This document shows, in pieces, positions 27,890 through 30,424 of a DNA stretch of 32,862 nucleotides. Source of the DNA: Acidobacteriota bacterium (GTDB lineage Bacteria; Acidobacteriota; Thermoanaerobaculia; Multivoradales; J023); NCBI GenBank assembly GCA_003697015.1, contig RFGL01000190.1, forward strand, positions 1 through 32,862, read 5' to 3'. Position 1 is the first letter of the stretch; each line of letters starts with the position of its first letter. A program made the translations under genes and the position numbers. The notes beneath the pieces were generated by a model. That model searched no databases and was not told where the DNA came from. It saw only the letters and a program-made list of their open reading frames with translations.

Positions 27890-28534
27890 GTGAGGCGCCC
27901 CCGCAGCCGGCCGGCGGCCGCCGGCGATAGCGTCCCCTTCGTCGCCGGCGTGGTGCTCGCCGCCGGCGGCTCGAGGCGACTGCCCGGGACGACCCCCAAG
28001 CAGCTGCTCGACTTCGGCGGCGAACCGCTGGTGAGACGGGTGACGCGGGCGGCCCTCGCCGCCCCGCTCGCGCAGGTGATCGTCGTCCTCGGCCACGAGG
28101 CGACTCGGGTGGCGGCCGCGGTCGCCGGCCTCGACGTCGAGACGGTGGTCAATCGCGACTGGGGGAGCGGTCAGAGCACCTCGGTCCGCGCCGGTCTCAG
28201 CCGGGTGGCGGAGGCGGCGCGGGCCGCCATCTTCCTGCCCTGCGACCAACCTTTTCTCGACGCCGCGGTCATCGCCGGTGCCGTCGCCGCCTGGCGCGCC
28301 AGCGGCGCGCCGATCGTGGTCCCTGCCTGGGGCGAACGCCCCGGCGCGCCGGTACTCTTCGAGCGCAGCCTCTTCCCCCGGCTCCTGCGCCTCGAAGGCG
28401 ACGCCGGCGGCCGCCTCCTCGCCGCCCGCCATCCCGAGCTCGTCCACCGCTGGCAACTGCCCGACGAACGCCCCCTTCTCGACGTCGACACCCCCGCCGA
28501 CCTCGAGCGCCTGCGGCGCCTCGCCGAAGCTTGA
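27890..28534 (+). CDS. MobA/MocA-like nucleotidyltransferase (NTP_transf_3)
   Basis: VVLAAGGSRRLPGTTPKQLLDFGGEPLVRRV (LAAGxSxR...K.LL), WGSGQSTSVRAGL, IFLPCDQPFLDA, LLDVDTPADLERL. Confidence 0.88.
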   Translation: MRRPRSRPAAAGDSVPFVAGVVLAAGGSRRLPGTTPKQLLDFGGEPLVRRVTRAALAAPLAQVIVVLGHEATRVAAAVAGLDVETVVNRDWGSGQSTSVRAGLSRVAEAARAAIFLPCDQPFLDAAVIAGAVAAWRASGAPIVVPAWGERPGAPVLFERSLFPRLLRLEGDAGGRLLAARHPELVHRWQLPDERPLLDVDTPADLERLRRLAEA

Positions 28535-28572: not shown

Positions 28573-28601
28573 TTGACGTACGTATACCTTCGGTCTAAAG
28601 T
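28573..28601 (+). promoter_or_regulatory. sigma70-like promoter for the two-gene island
   Basis: TTGACG (28573-28578), 17-nt spacer, TAAAGT (28596-28601). The palindromes ACGTACGT (28576-28583) and GTATAC (28582-28587) fall at the -35 edge and in the spacer. Confidence 0.6.
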
Positions 28602-28640
28602 AGTAGGTGACGCCAAGCCCGAGCTGTGAGGAGGCACAGG

Positions 28641-28982
28641 ATGGCCACCAAATCAAGAATTGGAAGCGAACGGACCGCGGAAGCGGCCTCGAAGGTCGGC
28701 CGCAGTGGATCGTCGCCTACAAAACCGGAAACCACTGCCGCCAGCCCGCTCGCTCGGCGAGCCGCAGCCGAGGGCAAGACGTTGCAGAAAGCGGGGAAAG
28801 CAGCTTCGAAAGTCCGTCGCGGTGCCGGAGCGGGCCAGACGCCGAAAAGCGCCGCGGGCAGCGCGGTTGTAGAGCGACTGCCGCGCACCATTAAATCCGC
28901 CCCGAAGGCAGGGAAGGTCAGCAAGATGGACGTCAAACGTGCCGTCGAGGCAGTTTCGTCGAAGCGAGCTGCTACGTTCTAA
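28641..28982 (+). CDS. small highly basic Ala/Lys/Ser-rich protein of unknown function (113 aa)
   Basis: ATG at 28641 with AGGAGG (28629-28634) 6 nt upstream. By count 25 Lys+Arg versus 7 Asp+Glu. Two ~27-aa internal repeats (EAASKVGRSGSSPTKPETTAASPLARR / KAASKVRRGAGAGQTPKSAAGSAVVER). The supplied track extends to a GTG at 28626. Confidence 0.72.
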   Translation: MATKSRIGSERTAEAASKVGRSGSSPTKPETTAASPLARRAAAEGKTLQKAGKAASKVRRGAGAGQTPKSAAGSAVVERLPRTIKSAPKAGKVSKMDVKRAVEAVSSKRAATF

Positions 28983-28994
28983 GAACGCAGCATT

Positions 28995-29612
28995 ATGAAG
29001 CGCTCAGCCTATGAGGAAAGCGTATTCATCAACTGCCCGTTCGACGCCGCTTACCTGAACCTCCTGAACGCGATACTCTTCGCCGTATTCGACTGCGGTT
29101 ACAAGCCCCGTTGCGCCCAAGAAGCCGACGACGGATCCCAGGTCCGAATTCAAAAAATCTACCAGCTGATCGCCGGCTCCAAGCTCGGCATCCACGACAT
29201 CTCGAGGACCGGCCTGGATCCGGCGACCAACCTTCCAAGATTCAACATGCCCTTCGAACTCGGCGTCTTCCTGGGCGCCAAGAGATTCGGCGACAAGCAT
29301 CAGCGCAGCAAGAATTGCTTGATTCTTGACAAAGAACCATACCGATATCAGCAGTACATTTCCGACATCTCGGGCCAAGACATTCGTGCCCACGGCGACG
29401 ACCCCGAGACCGTGATCAGCATCATTCGAGATTGGCTGAAGAATGCATCGCCGGACACGGTAATACCTGGCGGCAAAGAGATCTTCAGACGCTACAAACT
29501 CTTCATGAGCGAGCTGCCTGAGCTTTGCGCCGAAATCCCGATTGATCCCAGCGAGCTCACCTACAACGATTATACGTCGTTCATCTCCGAGTGGCTGAGG
29601 GTCAACGCATGA
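28995..29612 (+). CDS. conserved-looking 205-aa protein, putative TIR/nucleoside-deoxyribosyltransferase-like Rossmannoid domain
   Basis: Starts 12 nt after the preceding stop. SVFINCPFDAAYLNLLNAILFAVFDCGYKPRCAQE, IYQLIAGSKLGIHDISR, LPRFNMPFELGVFLGAKRFG, NCLILDKEPYRYQQYISDISGQDIRAHGDDP. Alternating strand/helix pattern with Glu in the ELG motif. The fold assignment is inference. Confidence 0.8.
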   Translation: MKRSAYEESVFINCPFDAAYLNLLNAILFAVFDCGYKPRCAQEADDGSQVRIQKIYQLIAGSKLGIHDISRTGLDPATNLPRFNMPFELGVFLGAKRFGDKHQRSKNCLILDKEPYRYQQYISDISGQDIRAHGDDPETVISIIRDWLKNASPDTVIPGGKEIFRRYKLFMSELPELCAEIPIDPSELTYNDYTSFISEWLRVNA

Positions 29613-29641: not shown

Positions 29642-30424
29642 TTACTCCAGCTGGTCCTTGCGCCGGCCGCAGAGGGCGGTGACGACGCCGTGCAGGGTGC
29701 GGACCTCGCGTTCGCTCAGGTTGGCGCGGTGGAAGATGGCGCGCAGGTTGCGCACCATCGACGGGCGTAGCTCGCGGGTCTTGAAGAAGCCCGTTTGCTC
29801 GAGGGCGCCTTCGAGGTGGTCGAAGAAGCCGAGCAGCTGCGCGCGGGTGGCCGGCGGCGCGCCGGCGGCGGAAGGCCGAGGCGGCGACGGCAGCGATCCG
29901 GCGCGGCGCCACTCCCAGGCCAGGAGCAGCACCGCCTGGGCGAGATTCAAGGAGCTGAAACCGGGGTTCAGGGGAATGGTGAGGATGGCGTCGGCCAGGC
30001 TCAGCTCATCGTTGGTCAGGCCGATGCGCTCGCGGCCGAAGAGCAAGCCGGTGCGCTCCCCCCGGGCACTGGCGCGGCGGATCGCCGCCGCCGCTTCCTG
30101 CGGCGTGAGCACCGGCTTGGCGACGTCCCGCGGCCGGGCGGTGGTGGCGTAGACGTGATGCAGGTCGGCGACGGCGCTCCGCAGGTCGTCGTAGAGTCGC
30201 GCCGCGTCGAGCACCGCGTCGGCACCCGACGCAGCGGCCCGCGCCTGGGGATTGGGCCAGCCGTCGCGCGGCGCGACCAGCCGCAGGTCCCCGAGGCCGC
30301 AGTTGAGCATCGCCCGCGCCGCCGCGCCGACGTTCTCCCCCAGCTGCGCCCCGACCAGGACGACGGCGGGGGCCCCGTCCTCGACGTCGCTCATGCCGCG
30401 CAAGCGGCCGTCCGTACCGGCCAT
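29642..30424 (-). CDS. trmJ: TrmJ/TrmH-like SPOUT tRNA 2'-O-methyltransferase
   Basis: VVLVGAQLGENVGAAARAMLNCGLGDLRLVAPR, TGLLFGRERIGLTNDELSLADAILTIPLNPGFSSLNLAQAVLLLAWEW: SpoU-type knot motifs. An alternative start at 30394 (MSDVEDGAP) is possible. Confidence 0.88.
   Translation of the reverse strand: MAGTDGRLRGMSDVEDGAPAVVLVGAQLGENVGAAARAMLNCGLGDLRLVAPRDGWPNPQARAAASGADAVLDAARLYDDLRSAVADLHHVYATTARPRDVAKPVLTPQEAAAAIRRASARGERTGLLFGRERIGLTNDELSLADAILTIPLNPGFSSLNLAQAVLLLAWEWRRAGSLPSPPRPSAAGAPPATRAQLLGFFDHLEGALEQTGFFKTRELRPSMVRNLRAIFHRANLSEREVRTLHGVVTALCGRRKDQLE

Follow-up and report, generated by a model that had tools for sequence, protein, structure and literature searches.

What does the 205-residue protein encoded in this stretch of an Acidobacteriota genome do, and does it work alone? 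An earlier reading of the window (the whole stretch of DNA analyzed, 32,862 nucleotides), made from the letters only, had proposed a hydrolase of NAD or nucleotides resembling TIR domains or nucleoside 2-deoxyribosyltransferases (NDTs), with E88 as the candidate catalytic glutamate. The ORF is intact and carries all the motifs that had been quoted from it, at the positions collected in Table 1; the E88 codon lies exactly where it had been placed, at 29256-29258. The 5.3 Mb genome holds no second copy of it, but does carry a canonical TIR_2 domain in a long open frame (G000:C443:4275-4613). Comparison of sequences confirmed, far beyond chance, that the ORF is a real gene. Relatives are encoded in at least 546 stretches among one-genome-per-species GTDB contigs, and the best 80 of these are roughly 50-61% identical to the window protein over nearly the full length and come from many phyla (Acidobacteriota, Poribacteria, Planctomycetes, Proteobacteria, Nitrospirae, Chlorobi, Verrucomicrobia and others).

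The distribution of the family is patchy. Seven of 59 near relatives carry matches, up to six per genome, and within the phylum the family was found in 17 of 297 genomes. Matches to the TIR-like protein were absent from 50,697 phage records and only 10 relatives were found in 2.9 million viral contigs; the gene is therefore not a core phage gene. In L021, L026, L054, L222 and L228 the TIR-like gene is interrupted by stops or shortened while the small gene beside it, described below, can still be read. Scans of the window protein against Pfam, NCBIfam, PADLOC and PHROGs and searches of PDB sequences gave nothing significant, and these four libraries hold no model for the family.

Table 1. Features of the two-gene module and its flanks (positions are those of the window).
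Feature	Coordinates	Strand	Basis or remarks
MobA-like NTP transferase, left flank, outside module	27890..28534	+	
Sigma-70-like promoter candidate, TTGACG-17-TAAAGT	28573..28601	+	Upstream of the pair; consensus scan, 1 found against 0.4 expected, weak
Small basic partner, 113 aa	28641..28982	+	ATG at 28641, GGAGG at 28629-28633; a small ORF likewise near most relatives
Conserved partner motif, RTIKSAPKAGKVSKMDVKRAVEAVSSKRAA	28884..28973	+	Motif HMM E=3.7e-10; C-terminal half predicted helical
TIR/NDT-like gene, 205-aa protein	28995..29612	+	ORF reading, relatives, invariance, AF2 model, Foldseek, profile alignment
First beta strand and following loop, VFINCPF	29022..29042	+	F11, N13, P15 invariant in 99/99
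D68-x-S70 of IHDISR motif	29196..29204	+	Invariant in 101/101
RFNMPFELG block	29238..29264	+	R82-N84-M85-P86-E88-G90 invariant in 101/101; E88 is the predicted catalytic Glu
SDISGQDIRAH block	29361..29393	+	Counterpart of PCTIR 'PSDxxG' motif
SpoU-family RNA methyltransferase, right flank, outside module	29642..30424	-	

The conserved residues of the family mark out a probable active site. E88 is invariant in the 58 close relatives that were aligned, and remains so in a 101-sequence alignment that takes in relatives as divergent as E ~1e-30. In the latter, S123 and G127 are as rigidly conserved as the residues listed in Table 1, while in the C-terminal block D124 is found in 100 of 101 sequences and D129 and H133 each in 99. 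An AlphaFold2 model built from 58 sequences (pLDDT 91, pTM 0.89) places E88 within the first turns of helix 84-98. When this model was compared with the PDB using Foldseek, the NDT 2a0k ranked first, followed by further NDTs, SPARTA TIRs, the SfSTING TIR and AbTir (TM-score 0.74 over the target); the E-values of these matches were only ~1e-3 to 1e-2, with probabilities of ~1. The best matches among viral structures likewise include a CAP12-type TIR and deoxyribosyltransferases. The fold that had been proposed from the letters is thus the one predicted here.

Profile comparisons gave a similar picture. At E<=1, 35 of the 58 members match the CAP12-PCTIR family PF10137 (best E 8e-4), all of them below its gathering cut-off of 24.7 bits, the best member reaching 19.8 bits. 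For the window protein, PF10137 gave no match at E<=1. In profile-profile alignments, the RFNMPFELG block falls on the PCTIR block RARQNVIFELG and SDIxGQDI falls on PSDxxG, and the order of motifs agrees with that in PF10137. The E-values were 3e-4 for PCTIR and 1.6e-4 for NDT, in both cases with E88 on the catalytic Glu, compared with 0.62 for an unrelated control family; the PCTIR set held at least two wrong-frame rows (L107 and L120), an error expected to lower the score of this match, not to produce it. No significant profile-profile alignment was obtained with TIR_2, with DUF4062 or with an unrelated methyltransferase: DUF4062 gave an hhalign E of 0.06 and did not align over the active site, and PF13271 (DUF4062) matched one of the 58 members, at E=0.096 only, with none in the source genome. 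Together, the structural model and the sequence profiles support placement of the protein in the TIR/NDT fold, with CAP12/PCTIR and NDT as its nearest predicted kin. The sub-threshold PF10137 matches fit a separate family, as had been surmised. The SDISGQDIRAH block is conserved, as that reading had also held; since it aligns with the PCTIR motif, however, it is not foreign to TIR domains as had been thought.

The TIR-like protein does not stand alone, because a dedicated small gene adjoins it. This second gene of the pair (28641-28982) lies outside the coordinates given in the sequence-only reading, which had missed it. It ends 12 bp before the TIR-like gene and encodes a Lys/Ala/Ser-rich protein, probably disordered apart from a C-terminal motif; a Pfam search with this ORF returned nothing at E<=1. 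The C-terminal segment of this protein, RTIKSAPKAGKVSKMDVKRAVEAV, recurs in small ORFs adjoining the TIR-like genes of relatives; the motif comprises about 28 residues, with the C-terminal helix pattern G-x-V-S-x-x-x-I-x-x-A-V-x-x-V. Partner and enzyme share one frame, and an AlphaFold2 model was made in which the single TAA between them was read through. In it the motif was helical (core pLDDT ~87), but docking of this helix on the enzyme is unconvincing, since pTM falls from 0.89 in the enzyme model to 0.78.

Motif and TIR-like gene proved to be tightly paired. An HMM was built from 25 motif sequences, the seeds being picked near TIR-like genes, and was run against 15,708 six-frame segments; at E<0.05 all matches were on the same strand as a TIR-like gene and within ~420 bases of it. 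Many of them were not seeds (for example L013, L014, L034, L052, L056 and L063). At convergence the motif was found in 54 loci, with every match adjoining a TIR-like gene and none elsewhere in a set of 201 loci, which includes 90-odd control loci of other, mostly TIR-type, families. The source genome has one motif site, that of the window, and of the 26 sites found across 18 whole genomes, 22 adjoin a TIR-like homolog or its remnant, the other four having no TIR-like gene within 1.5 kb. Apparent orphan partners, judged by the same distance, are seen at L210, L215, L226 and L227, and tandem duplicates of the partner gene at L013:6647-7192 and L030:1292-1669. The iterated partner HMM converged short of the most diverged partners, and these were looked for by a windowed test against controls. 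In 25 loci without an HMM-detected partner, the 330 bases upstream of the TIR-like gene outscore 1,173 control windows (Mann-Whitney p=7e-15), which points to diverged versions of the partner upstream of most of the remaining loci. In the window and in nearly all phyla the partner comes first, co-oriented and tightly spaced; in Poribacteria it lies downstream, a single relocation on the tree.

The remainder of the partner is exchanged from locus to locus. In some loci the partner is the motif alone, whereas in others the motif is joined to DUF2188 (L020, L080, L085) or to a GIY-YIG-like domain (L052, L056, L062, L063). DUF2188 alone is encoded directly upstream of diverged TIR-like relatives (L086-L090, L195, L196 and L198-L202) and is also the partner in several viral contigs. 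When seven genomes were compared, 6 of their 11 DUF2188 genes adjoined a TIR-like gene; literature searches turned up no report that joins DUF2188 with TIR. The motif is also fused N-terminally to a DncV-like/SMODS CD-NTase encoded immediately after a TIR-like gene (L044:6655-7929; PF21654 E 3e-10), and shares one ORF with a Thoeris ThsB-type TIR domain (L225:1501-1584 in G061; PF08937 E 6e-23), where the adjoining TIR-like gene survives as weak remnants only. Proteins of ~420-600 aa carry it at L026:6632-8437, L040:6636-8429 and L043:6632-7888; those at L026 and L040 are unassigned and reach ~600 aa, and that at L026 has no significant Pfam match. A diverged TIR-like clade (L092, L094, L095, L096) has a different conserved small protein upstream, KHIAPPATAEQI, with the pattern KHIAPPATAEQIxxxxGVTxxDxxxVxxVL. 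The exchange suggests that the variable part of the partner carries a sensing or DNA-association function.

The pair looks like a horizontally acquired insertion. In a genome of the same genus (G001, locus L151) the MobA-like and SpoU-family genes that flank the module are immediate neighbors, ~80 bases apart and without the module, and the GC content of the pair is low, at 0.64 for the partner and 0.55 for the TIR-like gene against 0.72 overall. Relatives are present on rhizobial and Sphingomonas plasmids, one of them adjoining TniB/TniQ transposition genes and preceded by a small gene annotated as hypothetical. Defense genes occur near relatives (JetD, ThsA/ThsB, ZorD, AbiLi, DpdE), as scattered single matches that do not dominate the 136 proteins.

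We consider it somewhat probable that the two genes form a mobile suicide or defense module, in the manner of a toxin-antitoxin or abortive system, in which a small partner controls a TIR-like NADase effector. The 205-aa protein would be a NAD glycohydrolase of the CAP12/PCTIR-NDT branch, in which E88 attacks the nicotinamide-ribose bond with the support of N84, D68/S70 and R82. The partner would bind the enzyme through the conserved helix and, most likely, act like an antitoxin in holding it inactive; once phage infection or some other stress had removed or altered the partner, the enzyme would be released, and NAD depletion would lead to growth arrest. The occurrence of the helix in other bacteria, joined there to various immune sensors, is what gives the pair the look of a plug-in suicide or antiviral module. 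The enzyme could instead be a nucleoside or nucleotide glycosidase or deoxyribosyltransferase of the NDT type, or a maker of signaling nucleotides, rather than a depleter of NAD, as the structural rank of 2a0k and the NDTs behind it and the E-value of the NDT profile, with E88 on its Glu, would allow. We judge this improbable: the PF10137 matches extend further along the protein and take in the SDxxG block, and the mobile, partnered setting suits a conflict effector more than salvage metabolism. Hydrolysis of NAD or of nucleosides by the protein is what we infer from these likenesses. Many TIR domains act as scaffolds, and a non-catalytic TIR-like scaffold or signaling protein would need no such chemistry; since E88 and the active-site block around it never vary among the 101 sequences, we consider that very improbable here.

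The direction of control is the closer question. TIR effectors are usually activated by oligomerization, and the partner might be an activating adaptor or sensor, the enzyme being inactive alone and the exchangeable domain sensing infection and assembling or delivering the effector, much as the effector-associated domains known as EADs are proposed to do. Fusion of the motif to sensor-type enzymes, the DncV-like CD-NTase of L044 and the ThsB TIR of L225, favors such an adaptor role, and the downstream position of the partner in Poribacteria departs from the antitoxin-first order. These fusions fit an activating adaptor as well as they fit an inhibitor. Most partners, however, are basic proteins of 50-110 aa, apparently disordered and with no evident sensor domain, and the order in nearly all other phyla is antitoxin-first with tight spacing; some apparent orphan partners occur without an effector. 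Activation by the partner is accordingly a possibility that we regard with some doubt, and inhibition is favored on the strength of gene order, the small basic partners and the occasional orphans. A more general form of the idea, that the ~28-residue motif is a universal docking plug for this effector family whose attachment rewires the effector to new sensors (CD-NTase, ThsB TIR, GIY-YIG-like, DUF2188), is put forward tentatively, as somewhat unlikely.

Several known systems resemble the putative suicide or defense module in part. The CAP12/PCTIR effectors of CBASS and Pycsar (PF10137) have the same Rossmannoid TIR-like fold, the R-x-N-x-x-[FL]-E-[LF]-G catalytic block and the downstream SDxxG motif, all of which align with the window family; the latter, in contrast, is unfused to SAVED, STING or other parts, has a small partner gene instead, scores below the Pfam cut-off and has its own conserved VFINCPFD and GQDIxxH signatures. 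NDTs (PF05014) share the fold and the Glu-bearing helix, but they belong to a salvage setting, whereas the window family has no Pfam match and a mobile two-gene setting. DUF4062 (Swarozyc) is an experimentally shown NADase that requires its conserved Glu (PMC13174449); the two families have in common a TIR/NDT-like fold, one conserved catalytic Glu (predicted in the case of the window family) and a patchy, mobile spread across phyla, although the auxiliary domains of DUF4062 are fused and the accessory part here is a separate small protein. EADs are similarly small non-catalytic modules common to an effector locus and to different enzymatic domains, including TIR-type ones (PMC7159879, PMC8195603), but they serve many effectors by homotypic pairing, while the ~28-residue motif, unmatched in Pfam, goes with a single adjoining effector family. 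NatR-NatT (PMC11535050) is a toxin-antitoxin system with a NAD-depleting toxin. It is likened to the window pair by its two-gene arrangement and by the NAD-directed effector that we infer here, and neutralization by the window partner is putative.

TIR-like NADases as such are already known, and the principle of a small adaptor resembles that of EADs (PMC7159879, PMC8195603). Neither the TIR-like family itself, nor its tiny partner, nor the swapping of partner domains turned up in the profile libraries and open-access literature that were searched. Degradation of NAD by TIR-like enzymes is central to immunity in organisms from bacteria to humans, and the present family occurs in many phyla, yet plasmid annotations call it hypothetical. 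If the pairing holds, this would be a TIR-like family whose control resides in a very small separate protein and its transferable helix; DUF2188 partners, to which the literature searched assigns no role, would also gain one. Should the docking-plug reading be true as well, the family would represent a bacterial immune effector of a plug-and-play kind, its sensors interchangeable.
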